A stretch of DNA of 25,551 nt, taken from positions 1 through 25,551 of the IMG/VR virus record IMGVR_UViG_3300044491_003096; one strand, written 5' to 3'. This DNA comes from a virus. Every line of letters begins with the position of its first letter. Position 1 is the first letter of the stretch. Below, in pieces: positions 5,503 to 25,245 of the stretch. The translations under genes were made by a program, and so were the position numbers. The notes below the pieces were generated by a model. That model saw only the letters and a program-made list of their open reading frames with translations. It had not been told where the DNA came from and searched no databases.

Positions 5503-6180
5503 ATGACTAATCCAATATTAGTTTCTGGAGACAGTTATTCTTTAGAGTGGCCTAAGCAATTTGCCAAATTGATAAGGAACCCGATTACAAATATTTCTTC
5601 ACAAGGTAGAAGTAATCTTTTCGTTTGGTCTTCTGCTATAAATTACCTTACAAAGGTTGATACAAAACACATAGTGATAGTTGGCAACAGTTTTATTACA
5701 CGCACAGATACTTGGGTGGAAAATCAAATTAATAAAAAAACTTGGGATGAAGTACAGCACCCTGAAAGAAAAAACGGAAATCTATCTATGCCATTACAAC
5801 ACTTTAATAAAAAATATGAAGAATGGTTTAGAACTTCGGATATATGTACACTATGGCAAGAATATTATTATGATCTGTTTTGTTTTGCTCATACACTTAA
5901 ATCGTTAGGACATGATTTTTTCTTGTTTAATGCGGCAAGAAACCTAATGGGTGATCCGGAACTAGATTTTAATTTCCGTGGTTATTTAATCAACACACCT
6001 TATTACAATTGGTGTCATTCACAACCTAATATTTTACCAGGTGATACTTTTTCAATACCAGATTGGTGTAAGGAAAACAATGTGAAGACATCAGACACCG
6101 GACATATCAAAGATGACGAGGGTTGTTTGGTATTTTCAAAATGGTTACACAAGCAACTGTTACAACTCAAGTTGTTCTAA
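5503..6180 (+). CDS. SGNH-hydrolase-like protein (AT-rich insert)
   Basis: 225 residues with the four SGNH landmarks: GDSYS at 9-13 (block I Ser), SSQGRSN near 33-39 (block II Gly), IVGNSF near 60 (block III Asn), and DTGH at 198-201 followed by IKDDEG (block V Asp/His pair). Family members are esterases, lipases or O-acetyl hydrolases, often acting on polysaccharides. No signal peptide is seen, so it acts in the host cytoplasm or in the particle. It is clearly more AT-rich than its neighbours and uses AAA, TTA and AAT codons where they use AAG, CTG and AAC. With its private promoter this marks a recently gained cassette. Substrate unknown. Confidence 0.7.
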   Translation: MTNPILVSGDSYSLEWPKQFAKLIRNPITNISSQGRSNLFVWSSAINYLTKVDTKHIVIVGNSFITRTDTWVENQINKKTWDEVQHPERKNGNLSMPLQHFNKKYEEWFRTSDICTLWQEYYYDLFCFAHTLKSLGHDFFLFNAARNLMGDPELDFNFRGYLINTPYYNWCHSQPNILPGDTFSIPDWCKENNVKTSDTGHIKDDEGCLVFSKWLHKQLLQLKLF

Positions 6181-7219: not shown

Positions 7220-8651
7220 ATACACATTTGATGTACAAAAACTTTATATAGAGATGTTGCTGGCGGATGCGGAATCATTCGCGAGGGCACAGAACATATT
7301 CAAACCCGAATCGTTTGATCGTAAACTGCAACCCATAGCCAAGTTCGTCAAGGACTACATGGACGAATACAAGGTCATGCCAGACGTTGAACAAGTCAAC
7401 GCCAAACATGATGTCAAACTGAAATCGGCCAAGGACCTGGATCCAAGCCATTTCAACTGGTTGTTAGACGAGTTCGAGACATTCTCCAGACACAAGGCGC
7501 TGGAACATGCCATACTACAATCTGCAGACTTGTTAGAGAAGGGTGACTACGGTCCTGTAGAAGACATGGTCAAGGAAGCGGTCAGCGTGGGTCTGACACG
7601 TGACCTAGGCACAGACTACTTCGAGGATCCAAAAGGCAGACTGACGGCCCTCAAGGACAACAACGGACAGATCAGCACAGGGTGGGCCAATCTCGACAAG
7701 AAACTGTTTGGTGGATTCAACCGAGGAGAACTAAACATCTTTGCAGGTGGATCGGGCGCAGGTAAGAGTTTGTTCTTGCAGAATCTCGCGGTCAACTGGG
7801 CCACCGCTGGTCTGAATGTGTGTTACATATCTTTCGAGTTGAGTGAACAACTGACAGCGATGAGGCTGGATGCCATGATGACCAACATACCAACACGTAA
7901 GGTGTTCCCAGAGATAGACAACGTGGAGATGAAGGTCAAGATGATGGCGAAGAAGTCTGGATTACTACAGATCAAGTACTTGCCGAGTGGTAGCAACGTG
8001 CTAGATGTTAGAACGTATCTCAAGGAACTAGAACTCAAGACCAAGAAGAAGATCGACTGTATCCTGATAGATTACCTGGATCTCATGATGCCCAAGAGCA
8101 AGAAGATATCGCCGGCAGACTTGTTCATCAAAGACAAGTATGTGAGTGAAGAACTAAGGAATTTGGTTGTCGAAAAACAGTGTGTGTTGGCAACAGCATC
8201 ACAGTTGAACAGGGCATCTGTTGAGGAGATAGAGTTCGATCACAGTCACATATCAGGAGGACTATCGAAGATACAGACTGCTGACAACGTAATAGGTATA
8301 TTCACTTCGAGGGCAATGAAAGAACGTGGTAGATATCAGATACAGTTCATGAAGACCAGATCCAGTTCTGGTGTAGGACAAAAGGTAGATCTAGAGTTTG
8401 ATGTGGACAGTCTACGTATCAGAAGCCTGGACGAGGATGAGTCACAGAGTTACAATCAACAGGGCAAGAACAAGATATACGATTCTTTGAAACAAACATC
8501 TAAAGTCACAGGCAATACAGACGCAGATGCTAGGTCAGAAGTGCCCGACCCACGTAAAGGCGATAACCTAGGAGTCAAGGTCAAAGCCACAGTTGAGGGC
8601 GGGAAACTGAGACAACTGCTAAATGAATTGCACTCAGATGAAGAACAATAA
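7212..8651 (+). CDS. 41: replicative DNA helicase, gp41-like (DnaB family)
   Basis: 479 residues, as in T4 gp41 (475 aa). The RecA-type core has Walker A GGSGAGKS (179-186), Walker B CILIDYLD (283-290) and an H3-type ATASQLNR (328-334). The first 130 residues form the helical N-domain used for hexamer assembly and primase contact. It moves 5' to 3' on the lagging strand and forms the primosome with gp61. The gene overlaps the primase by 8 bases in a different frame, so the two are translationally coupled. The C-terminal tail after residue 420 is hydrophilic and probably disordered. Confidence 0.95.
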   Translation: MAEYTFDVQKLYIEMLLADAESFARAQNIFKPESFDRKLQPIAKFVKDYMDEYKVMPDVEQVNAKHDVKLKSAKDLDPSHFNWLLDEFETFSRHKALEHAILQSADLLEKGDYGPVEDMVKEAVSVGLTRDLGTDYFEDPKGRLTALKDNNGQISTGWANLDKKLFGGFNRGELNIFAGGSGAGKSLFLQNLAVNWATAGLNVCYISFELSEQLTAMRLDAMMTNIPTRKVFPEIDNVEMKVKMMAKKSGLLQIKYLPSGSNVLDVRTYLKELELKTKKKIDCILIDYLDLMMPKSKKISPADLFIKDKYVSEELRNLVVEKQCVLATASQLNRASVEEIEFDHSHISGGLSKIQTADNVIGIFTSRAMKERGRYQIQFMKTRSSSGVGQKVDLEFDVDSLRIRSLDEDESQSYNQQGKNKIYDSLKQTSKVTGNTDADARSEVPDPRKGDNLGVKVKATVEGGKLRQLLNELHSDEEQ

Positions 8652-9282
8652 GGTCTGGATTTATCCCAGTGAGTTAGACGATTTACAACCATACATGGTC
8701 GACAAACCATACCAACAGTCTCACAGAAATAAAATAATAGAATACCTGATATCAATTAAACAACCATTCAGGAATTGTATTGACGTAGGTAGTCACATCG
8801 GTATATGGAGCAACGACTTTGTTAAATTGTTTGAATGGGTTCATGCTTTCGAAATCATTAAAGAGATGAGAGAATGCTATGTTAAAAATGTTGATGGGGG
8901 AAACTACACCTTGTATCCTTTTGGGTTAGGTCGAGAAGAAAAAATAGTATCCGTAAACTATGTGCCCCAACACAGCAAGAACACACAGATCGATTCGAAT
9001 GGCACTTATCGCGCAGAGATACGTCCTATTGATTCACTGAATCTTAAAAACATTGATTACATTAAAATGGATGTTGAGGGTTATGAATTGGAAGTTTTAA
9101 AAGGTGCTACCAAATTACTAAATTCACAGACGCCTATAATACATCTCGAAATGAAAATGGGTGTGCTAAAGAAATTTAACTTAGATAAACAAACAGTTAG
9201 GGATTGGTTAGCTCAACATGGATATCAGCAGGTTTTAAAAATTTCTAATGAATTTATTTTTAAAAAAAGCAAAGAACAGTGA
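8638..9282 (+). CDS. FkbM-family SAM-dependent methyltransferase
   Basis: 214 residues from the ATG at 8638; an in-frame ATG at 8623 would add five. Motif I is NCIDVGSHIGIWSND (46-60) and the FkbM-typical block is IDYIKMDVEGYELEVLKGA, which supplies the acidic residues. FkbM enzymes O-methylate sugars or polyketides. The gene overlaps the helicase by 14 bases but is much richer in A+T, with AAA/AAT/TTA codons, so it was probably acquired separately. It overlaps the following sulfotransferase-like gene by one base (TGATG), forming a two-gene cassette that may modify glycans. Confidence 0.8.
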   Translation: MKNNKVWIYPSELDDLQPYMVDKPYQQSHRNKIIEYLISIKQPFRNCIDVGSHIGIWSNDFVKLFEWVHAFEIIKEMRECYVKNVDGGNYTLYPFGLGREEKIVSVNYVPQHSKNTQIDSNGTYRAEIRPIDSLNLKNIDYIKMDVEGYELEVLKGATKLLNSQTPIIHLEMKMGVLKKFNLDKQTVRDWLAQHGYQQVLKISNEFIFKKSKEQ

Positions 9283-9893
9283 TGGCATTACGAATAGAGA
9301 ACAAACTTACATTTATTCACGTGAGTCATTCGGCCGGTACTGCCGTCTGTAAATTTCTAAAAGAGAACTTTGTTTGTGAAAACATAGGCCGACAGCACGA
9401 AACCTATGATCAATTATCACTCGAATTTAGGGACGATACTTTTGCCGTTGTGAGAAATACCTATGACCGAGTAGTTTCTCTTTACGAAAAAGATCGAACC
9501 ATATTTGGTTCAAAGAATAATCACACCTATAAAAAAGAATTTGCCTTACTAGAAAAGGGGTTTGATTGCTATGTCAAAAATTTACAGGAATATAGATTTG
9601 ATAAACACATGGTAGGTCGATCAAAAAGACGCACGTGGGCAGAACAAACACAACTCAGATTTCTCCCAGATGATTTAAATCTTATAAAACTTATAAGGTT
9701 TGATAATGTTGAAAAAGATTTATATCAATACTTACAGGATAGAGGATTGATGTACAACAGTCCCTTGCAAAGGAGAAATGCGACAAAAACACGTGAGGGG
9801 AGAAATTACAAAGATTACTATAACGCGGAAACAATAAAGATTGTTTCCCGAATATATGCTGACGAGATAGAAAAACTCAAATTTTGTTTCTAG
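9282..9893 (+). CDS. sulfotransferase-family protein
   Basis: 203 residues from the ATG at 9282, chosen because it overlaps the preceding TGA (TGATG); a GTG sits one codon upstream. The N-terminus has FIHVSHSAGTAVCKFL, resembling the 5'-phosphosulfate loop of Sulfotransfer_2 proteins, followed by AVVRNTYDRVVSLYE, the 3'-phosphate site (RxPxxRxxS type, with Asn for Pro). Such enzymes transfer sulfate from PAPS to carbohydrates. AT-rich like its partner upstream. Last gene before a repeat and terminator region. Function is by family similarity only. Confidence 0.7.
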   Translation: MALRIENKLTFIHVSHSAGTAVCKFLKENFVCENIGRQHETYDQLSLEFRDDTFAVVRNTYDRVVSLYEKDRTIFGSKNNHTYKKEFALLEKGFDCYVKNLQEYRFDKHMVGRSKRRTWAEQTQLRFLPDDLNLIKLIRFDNVEKDLYQYLQDRGLMYNSPLQRRNATKTREGRNYKDYYNAETIKIVSRIYADEIEKLKFCF

Positions 9894-10009: not shown

Positions 10010-10948
10010 CTAGAATGTGAACTTGATTCCAGCCGCCATGTCTGCTGTGTCTGTGCCTGACACCACGTCAGTCATCTCGTAACCAGCGTACATGCTGAAG
10101 TTGTCACCGATTTTCTTTTCAGCTCCAACTGTTGTGTAGGCAGTCCCACTCTTGACTTTACCGTAACCTGCTGAGAACGTTGTGTTTCCCACTGTGTGTG
10201 AGGCAACGTACTCGTTGGCTTTGGTATCAAGGTTGGTCGATTCCACCGTCTTGATTGTGTGGTTGTAACCAATCGTTGTGGCATCTGTGATGTCAAATGA
10301 TGCACCAACACCCTTGTACTCGATGTTGTTCACTTTGTCATCCGTGTAAGCGATACCCACGTTTAGGCCGTCGCTGATGTCCATAGAGGCCGCAGTCTCG
10401 TAAACGTCAACGCCTGATTTACCAGTTGTACCGTCAACTTTTACCAAGTTGTCGAACTGGATCGCACCGATGCTGTTAGAGTAGATCACTGTGTGTGAGT
10501 CTCTGCTGAACAGTTTCTGTGCGGCAGTATTACCATATTCTGGGAACACATCTGTCTTAGATGTGACAGCACCCTTGAACACAGAGTTCTGTCTTCCTGC
10601 TGATAGCACACCTGCTCCGCCCATGTCAACTCCGGCGAAAGCCAGTTTTGAATCGAATGGTGTGGAACCAGAGTCATCCGCGTCGATGTCCACTTCTAAC
10701 TTGGCGAAGCCGTCGATGCCCTCTGCGATGTTGCTTGAAAAGTCAACACCAATTGAGGAACCGTTGTTCTCCGCTTTTGCTGTTGCCACGCCTGAAGCGT
10801 TCTCGTTGTTTGAAACCATGTAGTTCAGTGAACCATACACCTTCATCTCTGTCGCTTCGGCTGGGGCTGGTTTGAACACCGCCCATAAAACGATGACTGC
10901 AACTACAATCGCCGCACCTATCGTCCATTTGTTCTTAGTAATTTTCAT
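10010..10948 (-). CDS. outer-membrane porin (phage-encoded)
   Basis: 312 residues. A basic start (MKITKNKW) leads into a 17-residue hydrophobic segment and PAPAEA, a signal-peptidase I site (cleavage near residue 32). Then comes MKVYGSLNYMVS, typical of the first beta-strand of Gram-negative general porins. The rest alternates amphipathic strands and Asp/Gly/Asn loops (GFAKLEVDIDADDSG, VLSAGRQNSVFKG), ending MAAGIKFTF with the C-terminal Phe recognised by the BAM complex. The predicted product is a beta-barrel in the host outer membrane. RBS: AGGAG, 11 bases before the ATG. A structured leader and a late box lie upstream. Possible roles are altered nutrient uptake or receptor masking; neither is shown. 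Confidence 0.85.
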   Translation of the reverse strand: MKITKNKWTIGAAIVVAVIVLWAVFKPAPAEATEMKVYGSLNYMVSNNENASGVATAKAENNGSSIGVDFSSNIAEGIDGFAKLEVDIDADDSGSTPFDSKLAFAGVDMGGAGVLSAGRQNSVFKGAVTSKTDVFPEYGNTAAQKLFSRDSHTVIYSNSIGAIQFDNLVKVDGTTGKSGVDVYETAASMDISDGLNVGIAYTDDKVNNIEYKGVGASFDITDATTIGYNHTIKTVESTNLDTKANEYVASHTVGNTTFSAGYGKVKSGTAYTTVGAEKKIGDNFSMYAGYEMTDVVSGTDTADMAAGIKFTF

Positions 10949-11114: not shown

Positions 11115-11143
11115 TTGACCCTGGGGCCGTTTCAGTGTATAAT
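11115..11143 (+). promoter_or_regulatory. strong sigma70-like promoter of the radical SAM operon
   Basis: TTGACC (11115-11120), 17-base spacer, perfect TATAAT (11138-11143). Initiation is expected near 11150, 20 bases before an ATG with a strong RBS. It is divergent from the porin late box 42 bases to the left. Confidence 0.8.
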
Positions 11144-11169
11144 TACGGGTACACACAAGGAGGTTCACC

Positions 11170-11340
11170 ATGGGCATACACTACGATTACAAGAGCACAA
11201 GGGGTGCGAAGAAACTTCAGAAACAACACGAACGGGAACAGCGCAGGCTACAGAAGAGACAGCAGTCAGAGGAGTCCACACCAGAGATGCGGGAGGACAA
11301 GCCACTGACCCTGGACATGATCACCGATCCCGCCAAATGA
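11170..11340 (+). CDS. small basic coiled protein, first gene of the radical SAM operon
   Basis: 56 residues beginning MGIHYDYKSTRGAKKLQKQH, with a Lys/Arg/Gln/Glu-rich helix and an acidic, Pro-containing tail. The start is fixed by AAGGAGG, 7 bases before the ATG. Its TGA overlaps the ATG of the first radical SAM gene (ATGA), so translation is coupled. No Cys or hydrophobic core is present, so it does not look like a typical RiPP precursor, though that role cannot be excluded. A nucleic-acid-binding or adaptor protein is equally possible. Function unknown. Confidence 0.75.
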   Translation: MGIHYDYKSTRGAKKLQKQHEREQRRLQKRQQSEESTPEMREDKPLTLDMITDPAK

Positions 11341-12368
11341 TAAACCGCAGGCTGTTCGACCACTACGGCATAGACACAACCAAGGATCTCAAGATCGCCA
11401 ACATCTGTCCTCGACCATTCGATACCGTCCTCGTGGACAAGCGGGGATCCTGTTACGCCTGTGAGTGCCAGTCATGGTTACCACAGAGCATAGGCAACCT
11501 GCAGGTAAAGGACATGGAGGACATATTAGGACACAACAACACCAGAGCTCATCTACAGGGATCCGTCAAGGACGGCACGTACCGTTACTGCAACGAACAC
11601 CAATGTTCATACATCAAGTCCGGCTCGATTTTCAATCAACGGATAGACCAAATTAGACACATCCGGCTTGCCATAGATGACAGTTGCAACCTGAGGTGCC
11701 CGAGCTGTAGGAAGGACATGATCTTCCACAAACAGGGTTCCGCTTACCAACTTGGCATAAGGCTGGCCGACAAAATAAATGACTGGCTTATGAATTACAG
11801 CCACGACGTACAGGTGCATATAGGGTCTGACGGAGATCCATTCGCCTCATACGTGTACAGGCATTTTATGGAGCACACGCCCGAGCGCGATGACATCAAG
11901 TACTCCATCCTGACCAATGGATTGATGTTCAAGGAGTTCCACTCCCGCGTGCCTAACGTTATCAGGAATCTCAAAGAACTCGGGGTCAGCATCGATGGTG
12001 CCAGCAAGGAGACCTACGAGAAACTGAGGATGGGAGGTAAATGGGACAAAATAATAGAGAACCTCGAATGTATATCGTCTCTCAAAGAACAATACGACTT
12101 TCAATTCATCTTGCACTTTGTTGTACAGAAGGACAACTACCACGAGATGGAAGACATCATAGCACTTGGCAAAAAATATCATGCTGACAGAGTCTGGTTG
12201 AACAAGATGGAGGATTGGAACGTGTCACCAAATTTCAAGGAAAATGACATATTCAACCCAGGACATTCCCTGCACAATGACTACAAAAAAAGCCTTGCAA
12301 GGATAAAACCTTACCTTGGGGCTGAAAAAAATCCTATCGTTGAAATTCCAACTTTAAATACCCGGTAA
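11337..12368 (+). CDS. radical SAM protein 1 with N-terminal Cys cluster
   Basis: 343 residues from the ATG at 11337. A longer reading from 11091 is rejected because it runs out of frame through the preceding small gene. The radical SAM [4Fe-4S] motif is CNLRCPSC (117-124, CX3CX2C). Before it lies a SPASM/twitch-like set: C24, C39, C42, C44, C85 and C90, around GSCYACECQSW and IGNLQVKDMEDILG. In known families this auxiliary domain follows the core; here it precedes it. SIDGASKETYEKLR is the usual substrate-binding strand. SPASM/twitch enzymes modify peptides or small molecules by radical chemistry; the substrate here is unknown. It is coupled to genes on both sides. Confidence 0.85.
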   Translation: MINRRLFDHYGIDTTKDLKIANICPRPFDTVLVDKRGSCYACECQSWLPQSIGNLQVKDMEDILGHNNTRAHLQGSVKDGTYRYCNEHQCSYIKSGSIFNQRIDQIRHIRLAIDDSCNLRCPSCRKDMIFHKQGSAYQLGIRLADKINDWLMNYSHDVQVHIGSDGDPFASYVYRHFMEHTPERDDIKYSILTNGLMFKEFHSRVPNVIRNLKELGVSIDGASKETYEKLRMGGKWDKIIENLECISSLKEQYDFQFILHFVVQKDNYHEMEDIIALGKKYHADRVWLNKMEDWNVSPNFKENDIFNPGHSLHNDYKKSLARIKPYLGAEKNPIVEIPTLNTR

Positions 12369-12841
12369 TGAAAATAGCGATTACCGGACACAAGAGAGGC
12401 ATAGGTCAAGCATTCGCCGAACAACTATTGTCAAGAGGACACGAAATTGTGGGTATATCGCGTAGTGATGGTGAAAACATAAGACGTACGGCACACACTG
12501 CTTCTCTGATAGAACCTTGCGACATGTTTATAAACAACGCTATAAGCAAGTATGCCCAGACAGAACTATTGTTTGAGGTCTGGCATCGCTGGATGAACAG
12601 CACGGAAGTACGATGGATCTGGAATATTTCGACCAAAGTGTGTGAATGGTCGGAGGACCAACACATACACGGGATAACGATGAGGGAGTCTATGGAATAT
12701 CGTAACCAGAAAATGGCACTGGAACTAGCACATGAACAGTTGTCAGCACAGCCTAGCAATATCAAAATGCTATTGATCAGACCTGATAGCAGGACTGACG
12801 TATATGTAAGACAGGTGTTGTTGGAACAAGGACTGACCTGA
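12368..12841 (+). CDS. short-chain dehydrogenase/reductase-like protein
   Basis: 157 residues, short for the SDR family (about 250). It keeps the cofactor loop TGHKRGIG (6-13), the NNA motif (56-58), a Ser in WNIS (88) and the catalytic YRNQK (Y111, K115), so the Rossmann core and active site look intact while the C-terminal substrate region is reduced. SDRs use NAD(P)H to oxidise or reduce alcohols and carbonyls, often in sugar metabolism. The ATG overlaps the preceding TAA (TAATG). A TTTAAATA box ends 7 bases upstream and may allow separate late expression. The next gene overlaps its TGA. Confidence 0.8.
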   Translation: MKIAITGHKRGIGQAFAEQLLSRGHEIVGISRSDGENIRRTAHTASLIEPCDMFINNAISKYAQTELLFEVWHRWMNSTEVRWIWNISTKVCEWSEDQHIHGITMRESMEYRNQKMALELAHEQLSAQPSNIKMLLIRPDSRTDVYVRQVLLEQGLT

Positions 12842-13998
12842 TGGATCCAAAGAAACTACTGACCAACAAAAGCATATGTGTGCTACCATGGACCGGATTC
12901 GAGCTGGATCCCGGAGGTTACGTCAAGAACTGTATCATGTCAAAAGAGTATTTAGGCAACATACAGGATACCCCGATAGACAAAATTTTAAATGGTAGTA
13001 CCAATATAAAACTAAAACAAGACATGCTGAACGATCGACAACCCAGTAACTGCCAAGGGTGTTACCTGCAGGAAAAAAACAGATCGTCGCTGAGCAGTAT
13101 CAGTAGTAGACTGTATTACCGGAAGGAGATTGCCAGCAAAACCGACTTAGGCATCTACGATGATGAGAAAAATTTTTCATTGAAACACGTGGATCTGAGA
13201 TGGACCAACTCTTGTAACCAGGCCTGTGTCTACTGCGAACCCATGCTGAGTAGTAAATGGGCACAAGAACTAGGAACTCACATAAGTTCAAACAAGGAAG
13301 CAAGACAAAATGTTAAGGAATTCGTGTTTGACAATATAGAAAGTTTACAAAATGTTTATCTAGCGGGGGGCGAACCCATGCTTATGAAGGAGAACTTGGA
13401 ATTCCTTCAACTGTTGAAACAGAAGAATCCAGACTGCTCCATAAGAATCAATACCAACCTCAGCACGACCAAGACCGGAATATTTGATCTTGTCTGCAGT
13501 TTCCCAAACGTGCACTGGACTGTCAGTGTTGAATCTATCGGCAAGGAATACGAGTACATTCGTTATCATGGATCTTGGGATGAATTTGAAAAAAATTTAA
13601 CAACAATCAAAAAACTAGATCATAGGATATCTTTCAATATGCTCCACTTCATCCTCAATCATCACTCGTTGTTTGACTGTGTTCGATACCTCAAGCAGAG
13701 AGGCTTCCACGACAATAGTTTTGTTATCGGGCCTTTGATGCAACCTGACCACTTACATCTATTGAACTTGCCTGCACACATGGTGGGAAAAGTTTTAAGG
13801 AAGATACAGAATGGCCTAGATTTGAAACCACAAGGTTATCTCAAGAACAGTTATGAAAATTTAATGGAGTACTACACCACAACTGCATGGGATAAAAACA
13901 TTTCAAAGTTTTTACAGGAAACAGCAATCAGGGATAAACGGCGTGGCACAGACTGTCGTAAAGTTTTTCCTGACCTGTTCGGAGAACTGGATGCTTAA
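12841..13998 (+). CDS. radical SAM protein 2 (twitch/SPASM-like)
   Basis: 385 residues. The cluster motif is CNQACVYC (125-132) and LAGGEPM follows at 174-180 (the GGEP SAM-binding motif). N-terminal Cys13, Cys31, Cys71 and Cys74 lie in a pattern (CVLPWTGFELDPGGYVKNC, LGNI, NCQGCYLQE) that closely resembles the auxiliary-cluster region of SPASM/twitch proteins. It is the second of three related proteins in the operon. It starts in the stop codon of the SDR gene (TGATG) and ends 8 bases inside the next gene. Probably an oxygen-sensitive cytoplasmic enzyme; substrate unknown. Confidence 0.87.
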   Translation: MDPKKLLTNKSICVLPWTGFELDPGGYVKNCIMSKEYLGNIQDTPIDKILNGSTNIKLKQDMLNDRQPSNCQGCYLQEKNRSSLSSISSRLYYRKEIASKTDLGIYDDEKNFSLKHVDLRWTNSCNQACVYCEPMLSSKWAQELGTHISSNKEARQNVKEFVFDNIESLQNVYLAGGEPMLMKENLEFLQLLKQKNPDCSIRINTNLSTTKTGIFDLVCSFPNVHWTVSVESIGKEYEYIRYHGSWDEFEKNLTTIKKLDHRISFNMLHFILNHHSLFDCVRYLKQRGFHDNSFVIGPLMQPDHLHLLNLPAHMVGKVLRKIQNGLDLKPQGYLKNSYENLMEYYTTTAWDKNISKFLQETAIRDKRRGTDCRKVFPDLFGELDA

Positions 13999-14518
13999 AC
14001 ACTGGGACAACTTGCTCAACACCGACTGTATCGTGGTAAGAGTGGGAACACACACTGTATATCCTATATACAGATCTGGCTCAACCAGCCTGGAACTGTC
14101 GGCAGACAAGGTCTATACCAACGAGCAAATCAAAGAGTGTGATCACATAGAGGTACTAATCAGAGATCCACATGAACGTTTTGTTTCGGGCATTAACGAG
14201 TACAGTAGATTAAACAACATGAATGTCGACCAGACCTGGACCCTCGTTAAACAAGGCAAACTTGCAGATCGTCATTTTGTCCCACAGTATATCTGGTTAC
14301 TTCATCTTAGTAAATATTACAAGGGCACCGTAACTTTAAGGCCGTTCGAATACATAAAAAATATCACTGACCTACACGCAAAATTAGATCCCAAGGAAAA
14401 AATTCTAGTCAACCCTATTGAAAATTTTGTCAAAGTGGATAGCGAACTGATGAAAATAATTAACCAAACAGTCGAGTTAAAATATCTAATTAGGAAATAC
14501 AAAGATGCACTGTCCTAG
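13991..14518 (+). CDS. sulfotransferase-like protein
   Basis: 175 residues from the ATG at 13991, chosen because every neighbour in the operon overlaps by 1-14 bases; an upstream GTG/ATG start at 13943 would overlap by 56. YPIYRSGSTSL (24-34) looks like the 5'-phosphosulfate loop and VLIRDPHERFVSGINEY (55-71) like the 3'-phosphate site of sulfotransferases. Short for the family, but it has both PAPS-contact regions. It sits between two radical SAM genes. Probably transfers sulfate to a product of the operon or to a glycan; inference only. Confidence 0.68.
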   Translation: MLKHWDNLLNTDCIVVRVGTHTVYPIYRSGSTSLELSADKVYTNEQIKECDHIEVLIRDPHERFVSGINEYSRLNNMNVDQTWTLVKQGKLADRHFVPQYIWLLHLSKYYKGTVTLRPFEYIKNITDLHAKLDPKEKILVNPIENFVKVDSELMKIINQTVELKYLIRKYKDALS

Positions 14519-15491
14519 AATCAAACACTTTGCTAGACTGAACAGGGATGGCACCATAGGAAAATGTGGTCACATGGTAGATCCTCCGGGATTCAGAAAT
14601 TTCGTAGACATGGAGCAAAGTCAATGGGTGGAAAACATAAAACAACAAATGCAGAGCAACCAATGGCCGGCCGAGTGTGTGAGATGTCAGAGGACAGAAG
14701 AAACCGGGGAGAAAAGTGTTAGGCTTGCCAGCATAGACAGACACAGATTATTGAAACCGTTACATGATGATTATCTCATAGTTGGCGGAGTTTTAGACAA
14801 CATTTGTAATAGTGCATGCCAAACTTGTAACGCAGGACTAAGCACAAAGATCGGAAGCCTTGAATCAAAACAATATCCAAAGATAGACAATTACGAACTG
14901 TTCTGGGAATTACCGCAGGACAGAATAGTCGAAGTGGACGTTAGCGGCGGGGAACCGACGGCCAGCAGGAACTATAAGAAATTGTTGTCAAACTTGCCAT
15001 CTAAAATAAAAATAGTGCGCATGAACACCAACGGTTCTCGCATGATTAACGAAATAGAATCTGTACTCGAACAAGGTATTAAAGTAATAGTCACGCTTAG
15101 CCTGGACGGACTACGTGACGTGCATGATTACGTACGGTGGCCTATTAAGTGGGACCAATATGAAGACACTGTCAACAAATACATAGGTCTTCAAAAAAAA
15201 TATAAATTGTTGGATATCGATACATGGACCACTGTAAGTTGTCTCAACATAATGGACCTATCTAACATTATAGAGTACACATCCGTTAACGGACTACAAC
15301 ATAACTGGTCTTTCCTTGAACGTCCGTCTGTGTTGAATGTAAAGTATAAAAATAAATTCACCGTACCTATGAAACACCTTTATCCGGATCAAGTAGCCAT
15401 AAAAGGAAATAATGACGAGGCACTCTCACACTTTTTAAAAAAACAAGACATGCTTCGCGGTATAGATGTAAACGATTATTTTAACTTCTGA
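14505..15491 (+). CDS. radical SAM protein 3 (twitch/SPASM-like)
   Basis: 328 residues. The cluster motif is CNSACQTC (101-108) and VSGGEPT spans 146-152. N-terminal C3, C21, C58 and C61 (WPAECVRCQRTEE) repeat the spacing seen in radical SAM 2. SLDGLRDVHDYVR is the typical core strand near residue 205. Last gene of the operon, overlapping the sulfotransferase-like gene by 14 bases. Its 3' end overlaps the convergent SGNH gene by 16 bases, with no terminator visible between them. Substrate unknown. Confidence 0.86.
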   Translation: MHCPRIKHFARLNRDGTIGKCGHMVDPPGFRNFVDMEQSQWVENIKQQMQSNQWPAECVRCQRTEETGEKSVRLASIDRHRLLKPLHDDYLIVGGVLDNICNSACQTCNAGLSTKIGSLESKQYPKIDNYELFWELPQDRIVEVDVSGGEPTASRNYKKLLSNLPSKIKIVRMNTNGSRMINEIESVLEQGIKVIVTLSLDGLRDVHDYVRWPIKWDQYEDTVNKYIGLQKKYKLLDIDTWTTVSCLNIMDLSNIIEYTSVNGLQHNWSFLERPSVLNVKYKNKFTVPMKHLYPDQVAIKGNNDEALSHFLKKQDMLRGIDVNDYFNF

Positions 15492-16180
15492 GAGAATTTT
15501 TCAAGAAACATTTTTGCAAAACGTTTATGATGTTCGATCCCATAATGTTTCCCGTCCATGGCCAGACTTGGTTCATTGTAAGGCACACGTTGCTTAAACT
15601 TGTCCCAGTAAGGCCAACAGTTCTTGAGTGTGTATGTTTCCAAAACATTCAATCCTGATATGTGTTTGTGATAGGAATCCTGTGCGAAACAATGGAAGGT
15701 CTTACATTCATTTTTTTCTGCGTACTTCTCCACAAAGAAAACATTCTTTAGGAAATTATTTCTATCGGTGTCGTCGTCCTCTCCCTTTAATAGTTCGTCG
15801 TGTCCCATCTGGCTTTGTGCATACTTTCCTAATCTTTCCCTGCGACTCCAGAAAGGCCAACACACGATTATGATTCTAGGATCTATTACTTTCTCACAAC
15901 CATACAATATCCTAACAATCTTGTCCGCACTTGCACCAGGCTGTCCTAAATTCCAGTACCTAAGCCTTCCTGTGTTGTGCTGTGACAGGAAATGCACCCA
16001 GTGTTCGTCGTCCTTGTTGCCTTGTCCGAAAGTGTGACTGCAACCAAGCACTAACACGTTCTTCTTACCGTCGGGCATGGGTGTCCATTCAGGGCACCTG
16101 TATCCGTGTGAATTCAGTTGGTAACCATCTATATCTACCCCGCGGGGTATTTCTCTGTCCGAATAGAATCCAAACTTCAT
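15476..16180 (-). CDS. SGNH-hydrolase-like protein 2
   Basis: 234 residues. Block I is LVLGCSHTFGQG (Ser48, with Cys in place of Asp), block II NLGQPGAS (77-84), block III IVCWPFWSRRE (block-III Asn absent), and block V DGKHYG (Asp209, His212). The GCSHT variant is shared with the C-terminal domain of the protein at 24054-25223, and differs from the GDSYS form at 5503. No signal peptide. It is co-translated with the upstream small gene by an ATGA overlap and converges on the radical SAM operon. Likely an esterase or deacetylase-like fold; catalytic ability is uncertain without the block III residue. Confidence 0.7.
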   Translation of the reverse strand: MKFGFYSDREIPRGVDIDGYQLNSHGYRCPEWTPMPDGKKNVLVLGCSHTFGQGNKDDEHWVHFLSQHNTGRLRYWNLGQPGASADKIVRILYGCEKVIDPRIIIVCWPFWSRRERLGKYAQSQMGHDELLKGEDDDTDRNNFLKNVFFVEKYAEKNECKTFHCFAQDSYHKHISGLNVLETYTLKNCWPYWDKFKQRVPYNEPSLAMDGKHYGIEHHKRFAKMFLEKFSQKLK

Positions 16181-24053: not shown

Positions 24054-25223
24054 TTATCGGATCAGGGGCAGGATCTCGTGGATCCATCGCTGGTGTGCCT
24101 GGGCCGAGGGGTGCTGACCATCCACCGCCCCGAGGTCATTGTCAAACAGGGGCAACAGGTTCCGTGGTCCCATCACGCTCAGACGTTCCAGGTCCTGGTG
24201 CACCTCGGGGTCATGACTGCCGATCCAGTACCGTCCACCCCATCCCTCCAGCAGGTATCGGATGCGATCCACTATCCTCAGTCCACGCCTCCTGTGGTCC
24301 CGCCTCACCAGTAGTCGCTGTCCCCTGTGCCTCATGGCCTCACGATCCTGGGTGTGCCACCACGCCGAGCAGGGTTCCGTCGGGGGTGTGGCCCGTGACA
24401 TCACGGTTATGGGCATCCTCAGGGTCTCGCCGTGCCTGTGTGTGCGTTCCAGTCGCCTGTGCCATGATGGCAGTAGCAGGATGATCCTGTCCATGTGGAA
24501 ACTGCGGATGGCCCTCTCCAGGTTCATCCATATGGCGTCCACCCCCGCTCCGGCCTGTGCCAGGTTGATGTTGGTGCCCGGTAGCAGGCTGGGCCATTGA
24601 TCACCACGCCGTATCGCCGATCCCTGTGTGACGCTACAACCGAAACAGCCATGGTCGTAGGTGCCCGTGGCGTCCCAGGGGTCGTGTGGTGTGTTGGCCC
24701 ACTGCCTGAGGTGGTCCAGGTGTGTGGTCCTCTCGGGGTCTCCACACTCACCGTCCCAGCAACCCGCCAGCTCACTGCCACAGTCGGTCCTGGTGTTGTC
24801 GTACACCCAGTCCCATCGACTGCCACTGCGGTACCACATGGTCCAGTCCCACCTCCGTGCCCATCGGGTGTCCAGTGCGACCCCACCGTTGAATGCTATC
24901 TCCTTCTCGCCCGTGATCAGTCTGTCCCGTTGGTACCGGTTGTGGCTGATCTGCTGTCTTATGAATCTGTCATGGTCCCTCAGGGCCTGTCCGTTGACCC
25001 ATATGCCGTCCACCGTTATCCGTTGGTAGAGCCCCTGTCGTATGCCCGACACCTGGAACAGTGGCGTGACCTCCCCTGACCTGTAGTTGGTCATGATCCG
25101 TAGTTCCGTGGCGCCCTCGGGCACCTGGATCTCCTGTTGGTCCTGGGTGTGTATGGTGATCGGTGTTGGTGATCCACGGGTCAGTGCCTGGATCTTTATG
25201 ATTACGGGCAATCGTGTCTCCAT
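24054..25223 (-). CDS. two-domain protein with C-terminal SGNH hydrolase domain
   Basis: 389 residues from the ATG at 25223, preferred over 25244 because a TATAATTA box lies 5 bases upstream. The first 180 or so residues are beta-rich (ITIHTQDQQEIQVPEGATEL) with clustered Trp and Cys (SELAGCWDGECGD), probably sugar- or virion-binding. The C-terminal half has SGNH blocks: GCFGCSVTQG (Ser about 197), NLAQAGAGVD, LLLPSW and DGQHPS (Asp about 368, His about 371). GCS and the missing block-III Asn match the protein at 15476-16180. No signal peptide. Very GC-rich, with many Arg and Trp. A receptor-binding or glycan-deacetylating tail protein is one possibility. Confidence 0.72.
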   Translation of the reverse strand: METRLPVIIKIQALTRGSPTPITIHTQDQQEIQVPEGATELRIMTNYRSGEVTPLFQVSGIRQGLYQRITVDGIWVNGQALRDHDRFIRQQISHNRYQRDRLITGEKEIAFNGGVALDTRWARRWDWTMWYRSGSRWDWVYDNTRTDCGSELAGCWDGECGDPERTTHLDHLRQWANTPHDPWDATGTYDHGCFGCSVTQGSAIRRGDQWPSLLPGTNINLAQAGAGVDAIWMNLERAIRSFHMDRIILLLPSWHRRLERTHRHGETLRMPITVMSRATPPTEPCSAWWHTQDREAMRHRGQRLLVRRDHRRRGLRIVDRIRYLLEGWGGRYWIGSHDPEVHQDLERLSVMGPRNLLPLFDNDLGAVDGQHPSAQAHQRWIHEILPLIR

Positions 25224-25228
25224 AACTG

Positions 25229-25236
25229 TAATTATA
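25229..25236 (-). promoter_or_regulatory. late-like box TATAATTA, 5 bases before an ATG
   Basis: The minus strand reads TATAATTA, then CAGTT, then ATG at 25223. It can also be read as a -10 TATAAT, but no -35 at 17 bases is seen. Confidence 0.45.
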
Positions 25237-25245
25237 ATGGTCATG

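Follow-up and report, generated by a model that had tools for sequence, protein, structure and literature searches.

Marine T4-like phages with multiple radical SAM (rSAM) genes have already been published. The available portions of two reports describe 12 rSAM genes in one 183-kb environmental marine T4-like phage genome (PMC5332604), and radical SAM cassettes together with many LPS-type genes in pelagimyophages (PMC7029224). We analyzed a 25,551-nucleotide stretch of viral DNA (the window), positions 1 to 25,551 of IMG/VR record IMGVR_UViG_3300044491_003096, which contains an operon of six genes, all on the plus strand, between 11170 and 15491 (Table 1). Relatives of this locus show two units, p56-rS1 and SDR-rS2-SULF-rS3, rather than one pathway.

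Neighboring genes in the operon overlap by 4, 1, 1, 8, and 14 bases, in agreement with the overlaps of 1 to 14 bases in the original prediction, which was also correct about the phage origin and the enzyme classes of the genes. The listed open reading frame of SULF has an alternative GTG start at 13943, which is probably too early because the ATG at 13991 is the start in relatives and pLDDT values are below 50 for residues 1 to 11 of the long form. A search for fusions between cassette members found none, and the only Rfam elements were tRNAs. Promoter-like sites are as many in the whole region as in shuffled sequences. A single promoter had been predicted ahead of the operon, and the relatives agree: in 49 of 61 distinct relatives ATAATTA occurs no more than 60 bp ahead of p56, versus 9 of 2,928 control windows. 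It is nearly missing from the 100 bp preceding three of the internal genes (rS1, 1/73; SDR, 0/106; sulfotransferase gene, 0/112).

Table 1. Features of the operon and its downstream border (window coordinates)
Feature	Position	Strand	Basis
Sigma-70-like promoter TTGACC-17-TATAAT	11115..11143	+	11/12 match; ATAATTA element kept 5' of p56 in relatives
p56, operon leader gene, 56-aa basic protein	11170..11340	+	Alignment; rS1 adjoining in 65/70 testable loci
rS1, radical SAM, N-terminal SPASM-like region before CX3CX2C core	11337..12368	+	Six invariant Cys
SDR, short-chain dehydrogenase/reductase	12368..12841	+	TGxxxGIG, NNA, S88, Y111-x3-K115
rS2, N-terminal-twitch radical SAM	12841..13998	+	NCBIfam NF033640, 266 bits; SPASM Pfam domain at residues 13-75
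SULF, PAPS-type sulfotransferase-like	13991..14518	+	Motifs PIxKNGSSSL, Rx7S, HxxPQ; AF2 model
rS3, radical SAM with N-terminal twitch Cys	14505..15491	+	NF033640, 129 bits, below cut-off of 170
SGNH-hydrolase-like gene	15476..16180	-	Convergent border of cassette in layout-A relatives

The SDR-rS2-SULF-rS3 cassette is a movable unit. Sequence and conservation show SULF and rS3 to be translationally coupled and SDR and rS2 to form a second coupled pair. SULF adjoins rS3 in 80 of 80 rS3 loci. An independent SDR query found rS3 within 3.5 kb in 79 of 80 loci, SULF in 76, and rS2 in 69, and the single SDR locus without rS3 is a contig ending at SDR; some loci have SULF-rS3 without SDR-rS2 (L022, L042, L052, and L073). 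The cassette occurs with SDR first in 22 loci (layout A, after gp41-p56-rS1 as in the window) and with SULF first in 46 (layout B, between gp32 and uvsX), with no mixed orders, and in each of the rS3, SDR, and SULF trees a single branch divides the two layouts (97/92, 100/99, and 100/100). Both coupled pairs stay together across the two gene orders and the two genome sites. This conserved neighborhood supports the functional linkage that had been proposed for the four genes. In phages with uvsX genes 82 to 99% identical, the gp32-uvsX interval is empty (55 to 73 bp) in 18, contains the cassette in 12, and holds other cargo in 31, so that close relatives of cassette carriers have an empty junction at the same site. 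The sites between gp32 and uvsX and behind gp41 are plastic, and p56-rS1 separates from the remaining operon genes, as it might if unrelated accessory genes had simply gathered there. However, SDR, rS2, SULF, and rS3 remain together despite the order swap and the change of site, with matching trees, and we consider chance gathering very unlikely.

SULF is a predicted sulfotransferase, based on its PAPS motifs and an AlphaFold model. Position 44 in the 5'-PSB loop is Lys in 50 and Arg in 4 of 54 members, the 3'-PB motif R-x7-S has R74 in 54/54 and Ser or Thr at position 82 in 50/54, and H111 and Q115 (HxxPQ) are conserved. Sulfotransfer_2 is the commonest Pfam match among the members, reached at an E value of ≤0.1 by 5 of 54 (best, 7.6e-4); the window copy had no Pfam match, and the SULF profile had none among PDB sequences. 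When the AF2 model was compared by VIA structure alignment, the top 23 rows were all PAPS sulfotransferases, with Z scores of only 5.2 to 3.0 (<8), and heparan-sulfate sulfotransferases were the highest-scoring solved structures (Z, ∼5). Foldseek E values were above 0.1, and the best BFVD match (E, 7e-12) is annotated as Sulfotransferase family. The low Z scores, the few Pfam matches, and the adenylate kinases and GTPases further down the structure list would fit some other P-loop-like transferase or kinase, but we find this very unlikely given the unbroken run of PAPS sulfotransferases at the top of that list, the conserved residues, and the BFVD annotation.

The window copy of SDR has all of the class motifs (TGxxxGxG, NNAG-like, Ser, and YxxxK), with Ile replacing the classical Gly after NNA. 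These motifs are invariant in 17 aligned members except for S88 (at least 90%). The protein retains its catalytic Ser/Tyr/Lys; its C-terminal part is shortened.

All three rSAM proteins exceed the gathering score of PF04055 (radical SAM superfamily), and their CX3CX2C core Cys are invariant in 21 rS1, 50 rS2, and 55 rS3 sequences. Invariant Cys also precede the core in all three, consistent with the predicted placement of auxiliary Fe-S ligands there. A pattern common to the three proteins had been proposed, and it holds for rS2 (C13-x12-G26-x4-C31 ... C71-x2-C74) and rS3 (C3-x12-G16-x4-C21 ... C58-x2-C61). rS1 fits only loosely, as its six invariant N-terminal Cys (C24, C39, C42, C44, C85, and C90) are spaced differently; PF13186 matches 20 of 21 rS1 members at an E value of ≤0.01, and NF033640 gives 39 bits, below the cut-off, over the core region 101-291 only. 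The C-x(9-15)-G-x4-C ... CxxC set is kept in 50/50 rS2 and 53/55 rS3 sequences, the other two rows being gapped at those columns, and rS2 and rS3 retain every Cys for the core and a predicted auxiliary [4Fe-4S] cluster. rS2 matches NF033640 with 265.9 bits (cut-off, 170) from residue 9 to 379 and profile position 1 to 394 of 398, and PF13186 matches its residues 13-75 above the cut-off. rS3 has no PF13186 match, and all 55 members match NF033640 at an E value of ≤1e-10; by sequence it is a relative of this family on a distant branch and not a filed member. Residues 1-66 of the rS3 model form a block with pLDDT values of 87 to 97. The best Foldseek matches of the model are the RiPP maturases SkfB and SuiB, and its rSAM core also matches NifB, MoaA, viperin, and BlsE. 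The N-terminal Cys domain had been taken for a new architecture, which is ruled out because the NCBIfam family NF033640 (N_Twi_rSAM) already covers proteins named for and laid out in this way.

The p56-rS1 pair is linked to the helicase gene gp41 and often stands alone. Among the 47 rS1 loci whose downstream sequence extends for 4.5 kb or more, 18 have no rS3 module, which rules out the complete six-gene modification pathway of the original prediction. p56 has conserved ends in the alignment (MGIHYDYK... and LTLDMITDP), and its HMM matches upstream of rS1 in 55 of 80 rS1 loci. The suggestion that p56 is an obligate substrate or carrier was not upheld: the protein is free of Cys, and rS1 does not adjoin p56 in 5 of the 70 p56 loci that could be tested, which rules out an obligate precursor, since a RiPP precursor would be found obligately beside its maturase.

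Peptides are the substrates of many SPASM/twitch rSAM enzymes, which counts against a glycan substrate here. The enzymes might modify a peptide or protein in a RiPP-like or post-translational manner, with rS1 acting on p56, or rS2/rS3 on an unseen peptide, and SULF adding sulfate to Tyr or to a new hydroxyl group. The top structural matches of rS3 are SPASM/twitch enzymes (SkfB, SuiB, and anSME), and p56 is a short protein whose gene is coupled to rS1 through the 4-base overlap in the window and usually lies next to it. However, p56 has no Cys, lacks an adjoining rS1 in 5 loci, and was not detected in the layout-B loci, which carry the complete cassette; moreover, we saw no small conserved ORF within SDR-rS2-SULF-rS3 and no conserved transporter or protease partner. 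We therefore regard a peptide substrate as doubtful.

Our best explanation, held tentatively, is that the region combines p56-rS1, a lineage-linked pair, with the movable SDR-rS2-SULF-rS3 cassette under one phage promoter, and that the four cassette enzymes would modify one molecule in turn, most likely a surface glycan or small molecule. The rSAM step may be an oxidation, epimerization, or bond formation at an unactivated carbon; SDR would reduce a carbonyl with NAD(P)H; and SULF would add sulfate from host PAPS, before or after the rSAM and SDR chemistry. The acceptor would most likely be a sugar or glycan, or a related small molecule of the cell surface, made or altered by the phage in the infected cell, and a change of the host surface could block reinfection or mask a receptor. 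We are confident of the enzyme classes and of the cassette as one functional unit; a glycan or small-molecule substrate is plausible but falls short of probable. Modification of a surface glycan or sugar seems to us a better candidate than that of a peptide because heparan-sulfate sulfotransferases rank highest among solved structures for the SULF model and Sulfotransfer_2 is its commonest Pfam match, because other gp32-uvsX cargo includes a formyltransferase, hexapeptide acyltransferase, Asp/Asn hydroxylase, and desaturase, because cytidylyltransferase/mannose-P-isomerase-type, glycosyltransferase-like, and GDP-mannose-dehydratase-like genes lie downstream in layout-B loci, and because pelagimyophages reportedly have many LPS-type genes as well as radical-SAM cassettes (PMC7029224). 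No glycosyltransferase is conserved in the cassette itself.

The cassette could instead produce a nucleotide, or a base of DNA or tRNA, that is hypermodified by sulfation or further derivatization. Nucleotides are substrates of rSAM enzymes in other phages, layout B lies among the replication and recombination genes gp32, uvsX, and uvsY, and a 2OG-oxygenase-like gene (HxD...H...R pattern) is present in 37 of 80 loci. The location says little about such a role, however, because gp32-uvsX is a hotspot with unrelated cargo that is often empty. With no conserved nucleotide kinase, thymidylate-synthase-like, or DNA glycosyltransferase partner, and with glycans and small molecules as the sulfotransferase acceptors in known structures, we judge this unlikely and keep surface modification as the preferred reading.

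The carriers are uncultured T4-like viruses from the sea and fresh water. Isolate phages (50,697 records) contained no rS1 or rS3 and only a 24% partial match to rS2, in two Vibrio phages. Among 84,980 species genomes, rS3 matched once, on a 10-kb MAG contig that is itself a piece of a phage genome bearing gp41 and SGNH genes, which rules out this match as a bacterial homologue; all NF033640 matches of that MAG are on the same contig. NF033640 scores above its cut-off in 2 of 274 genomes of the same class, one through this contig and the other through a single gene that neighbors a methyltransferase gene in an ordinary stretch of bacterial chromosome. In the searched collections, SULF homologues occur only in viruses. 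This virus-only set of steps (two N-terminal-cluster rSAM enzymes, an SDR, and a sulfotransferase) might yield a sulfated product or decoration unknown from any cell and movable among uncultured T4-like phages, a possibility that we hold with low confidence. If it is true, abundant uncultured aquatic viruses own a radical-plus-sulfation chemistry absent from the searched cellular genomes and isolated phages, which would suggest that infected bacteria contain a new sulfated metabolite or have an altered surface. The empty gp32-uvsX site and its exchangeable cargo provide a natural experiment, with close phages that have or lack the cassette.

No specific account of the SDR-rS2-SULF-rS3 cassette, or of N_Twi_rSAM under that name, came up in literature searches. 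The phages of PMC5332604 and PMC7029224 are of the same kind and also have plastic regions that contain many rSAM genes, but the available portions of these reports describe no sulfotransferase-linked cassette, two layouts, or empty site. N_Twi_rSAM, for which we know of no family function, has its auxiliary Cys before the core, as does rS2, matched over 371 of 385 residues; rS3 differs as a distant branch, and rS1 matches through the core only. SkfB, SuiB, anSME, BlsE, and MoaA share the CX3CX2C core, the rSAM barrel, and the C-x(9-15)-G-x4-C ... CxxC set, but the auxiliary domain of SPASM/twitch enzymes is C-terminal, whereas here it is N-terminal and the enzymes are partnered with a sulfotransferase and an SDR. 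SULF has the PAPS motifs (Lys/Arg 5' loop and R-x7-S 3') and HxxPQ of 3-OST, 2-OST, and NDST (Sulfotransfer_2), with a modeled fold that may resemble theirs (VIA Z score of only ∼5); unlike heparan-sulfate and other carbohydrate sulfotransferases, it is ∼175 to 220 aa long, has 10 to 15% identity to them, is found here only in viruses, and is coupled to an rSAM gene.

The 25,551-base IMG/VR virus record carries genes for T4-type replication (uvsW-like helicase, primase and gp41-like helicase), ClpP and tRNAs. As originally predicted, six plus-strand open reading frames (p56, rS1, SDR, rS2, SULF and rS3; see table) follow one another with overlaps of 4, 1, 1, 8 and 14 bases. The SULF frame is readable from a GTG at 13943, and the start in relatives is the ATG at 13991; in the AF2 model of the long form, residues 1 to 11 have pLDDT <50. 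The proposed promoter, TTGACC-17-TATAAT, matches at 11/12 positions. Because shuffled sequence yielded equally many promoter-like sites overall, we checked its conservation. Of 61 distinct relatives, 49 had ATAATTA within 60 bases 5' of p56, versus 9 of 2,928 control windows, and the string was nearly missing within 100 bases 5' of the remaining genes, a distribution that lends good support to the predicted single promoter before p56.

We surveyed relatives of these genes in fragments of uncultured viruses, some of them near-copies; counts from the rS3, SDR, rS1, p56 and uvsX searches are among the matches listed (best 80). The search with rS3, a radical SAM protein, returned at least 80 viral loci, and the sulfotransferase-like SULF lay directly upstream in 80/80 of those listed. 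Since an rS3 query could bias linkage, we made a second search with the short-chain dehydrogenase/reductase (SDR). Among its listed matches, rS3 was within 3.5 kb in 79/80, SULF in 76/80 and the radical SAM gene rS2 in 69/80; in the sole locus without rS3, the sequence ends beside SDR.

This cassette occurs in two layouts. Layout A, to which the window belongs (22 listed loci with SDR and SULF), reads gp41 - p56 - rS1 - SDR - (rS2) - SULF - rS3 - SGNH (opposite strand). Layout B (46 listed loci) reads terminase - gp32 - SULF - rS3 - (2OG-oxygenase-like) - SDR - rS2 - uvsX - uvsY, where uvsY, which matched no Pfam model, is named by its size and place. The SULF-rS3 and SDR-rS2 pairs have exchanged places; none of the layout A and B loci listed had a mixed order, and all layout A sequences lie beyond one single branch in the rS3, SDR and SULF trees (97/92, 100/99 and 100/100, respectively). 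The 2OG-Fe(II)-oxygenase-like small family (HxD ... H ... R pattern, no Pfam match) stands beside the cassette, in either orientation, in 37/80 listed rS3 loci. Three loci (L052, L073 and L075) carry a metK-like (S-adenosylmethionine synthetase) gene near a cassette without SDR-rS2.

We also took 80 listed loci by uvsX similarity alone (82 to 99% identical). Both gp32 and uvsX were visible in 61, and the interval between them (loci L312-L389) was empty, at 55 to 73 bases, in 18, held the cassette in 12 and held other cargo in 31 (Asp/Asn hydroxylase, formyltransferase, AMP-binding enzyme, hexapeptide acyltransferase, fatty acid desaturase). Judged by these gene orders, the cassette is an accessory unit that can be exchanged, and the interval is a hotspot for accessory cargo in uncultured T4-like phages.

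The 56-residue p56 and radical SAM protein rS1 form a separate unit. The proposal that all six genes make one pathway is rejected, as many phages have p56-rS1 after gp41 but lack the remaining operon genes; of the 47 listed rS1 loci that extend 4.5 kb or more downstream, 29 had the rS3 module. p56, suggested to be a substrate, carrier or regulator, preceded rS1 in 65 of 70 testable loci among the matches listed. Because five lacked rS1, we regard p56 from its gene context as a leader gene and not a proven substrate.

All three radical SAM proteins scored above the gathering score of Pfam Radical_SAM. rS2 belongs to NCBIfam NF033640 (N_Twi_rSAM), which it matches almost from end to end at 266 bits against a cut-off of 170, so the N-terminal twitch layout is already known as a named family. 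By sequence rS3 is a relative scoring under that cut-off (129 bits), with 55/55 members matching at E<=1e-10; the rS1 match was confined to the core. The original prediction gave all three one N-terminal Cys pattern. Conserved Cys do precede the core in each: C13, C31, C71 and C74 of rS2 in 50/50 sequences, C3 and C21 of rS3 in 53/55 (the other two gapped there), C58 and C61 of rS3 in 55/55, and six Cys of rS1 in 21/21. The C-x12-G-x4-C ... CxxC spacing common to rS2 and rS3 is that of twitch domains. Pfam SPASM matched rS2 and 20/21 rS1 sequences, N-terminally in rS2 and the window's rS1. In L054, L037, L060 and L068, the radical SAM gene is shortened and followed by one for a stand-alone 106-residue protein with a twitch-like Cys pattern, as though the auxiliary-cluster domain had a gene of its own.

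Family searches with SULF were weak: the window copy had no Pfam match, and 5/54 members matched Sulfotransfer_2 at E<=0.1. The PAPS features were retained across 54 sequences (numbering of the 191-residue reading): Lys/Arg at 44 within the PIxKNGSSSL loop, R74-x7-S/T82, and both H111 and Q115 of HxxPQ. The AF2 model (pLDDT 88.7) aligned best to heparan-sulfate and other PAPS sulfotransferases in VIA, which filled the top 23 rows at Z of only 5.2 to 3.0, and the closest viral model bears the annotation Sulfotransferase family (E 7e-12). SULF is likely, if unproven, a sulfotransferase. SDR keeps TGxxxGIG, NNA, Ser88 and Tyr111-x3-Lys115; compared with layout A relatives, the window copy is missing some 13 residues behind the RPG strand (at 12775-12841), and its cofactor binding may be changed or impaired.

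The comparisons show that the cassette genes are coupled, conserve catalytic residues and move jointly. Their enzymes would work together on a single molecule; host PAPS would donate the sulfate, and NAD(P)H would serve SDR. The AF2 model of rS3 is confident (mean pLDDT 93.7); it resembles SkfB, SuiB, BlsE, viperin, MoaA and NifB, and is uninformative on substrate because these likenesses span peptide, nucleotide and sugar-type enzymes. Since many SPASM/twitch enzymes act on peptides, a peptide or protein is the main rival substrate; nucleotides or DNA may also be the target. We favour a glycan or sugar-like substrate because SULF's relatives are carbohydrate-type, because of the cargo exchanged at the gp32-uvsX site, because cytidylyltransferase and glycosyltransferase-like genes lie downstream in layout B, and because LPS-type genes and radical-SAM cassettes are reported in pelagimyophages (PMC7029224).

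The gene immediately 5' of the operon, on the opposite strand, encodes a 312-residue porin-like protein with an N-terminal membrane anchor and, by eye, outer-membrane-barrel-like repeats. It had no Pfam match; relatives in L005 and L008 are 76 to 82% identical. A porin-like gene would be unusual in a phage. An FkbM methyltransferase gene is followed, with a 4-base overlap, by another sulfotransferase-like gene, which differs from SULF (PHROG galactose-3-O-sulfotransferase, E 4e-7). None of three SGNH-hydrolase-like proteins (motifs such as GCSHTFG and GCSVTQG) had a significant Pfam match.

Positions of features in the window and in related loci
Feature	Locus	Position	Strand	Basis
p56	window	11170-11340	+	
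rS1	window	11337-12368	+	
SDR	window	12368-12841	+	
rS2	window	12841-13998	+	
SULF	window	13991-14518	+	
rS3	window	14505-15491	+	
SGNH-hydrolase-like	window	5503-6180	+	motif
SGNH-hydrolase-like	window	15476-16180	-	motif
SGNH-hydrolase-like	window	24054-25244	-	motif
Porin-like	window	10010-10948	-	
FkbM and second sulfotransferase-like	window	8623-9893	+	
2OG-oxygenase-like	L048	8926-9468		
2OG-oxygenase-like	L024	5332-5814	-	
metK-like	L052	11560-12660		
106-residue twitch-like	L054	12433-12753		
106-residue twitch-like	L037	10245-10565		

Neither rS1 nor rS3 was found in 50,697 isolate phage records, where rS2 matched two Vibrio phages at 24%; among 84,980 species genomes, one had rS3, and the 10-kb contig carrying it is itself a phage fragment. 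The literature searched contained no description of the sulfotransferase-rSAM-SDR-rSAM cassette, of its two layouts or of its empty site. Radical SAM genes are abundant in marine T4-like phages, with 12 in one 183-kb genome (PMC5332604), and we regard the cassette as a variant of the known phage accessory modification cassettes.
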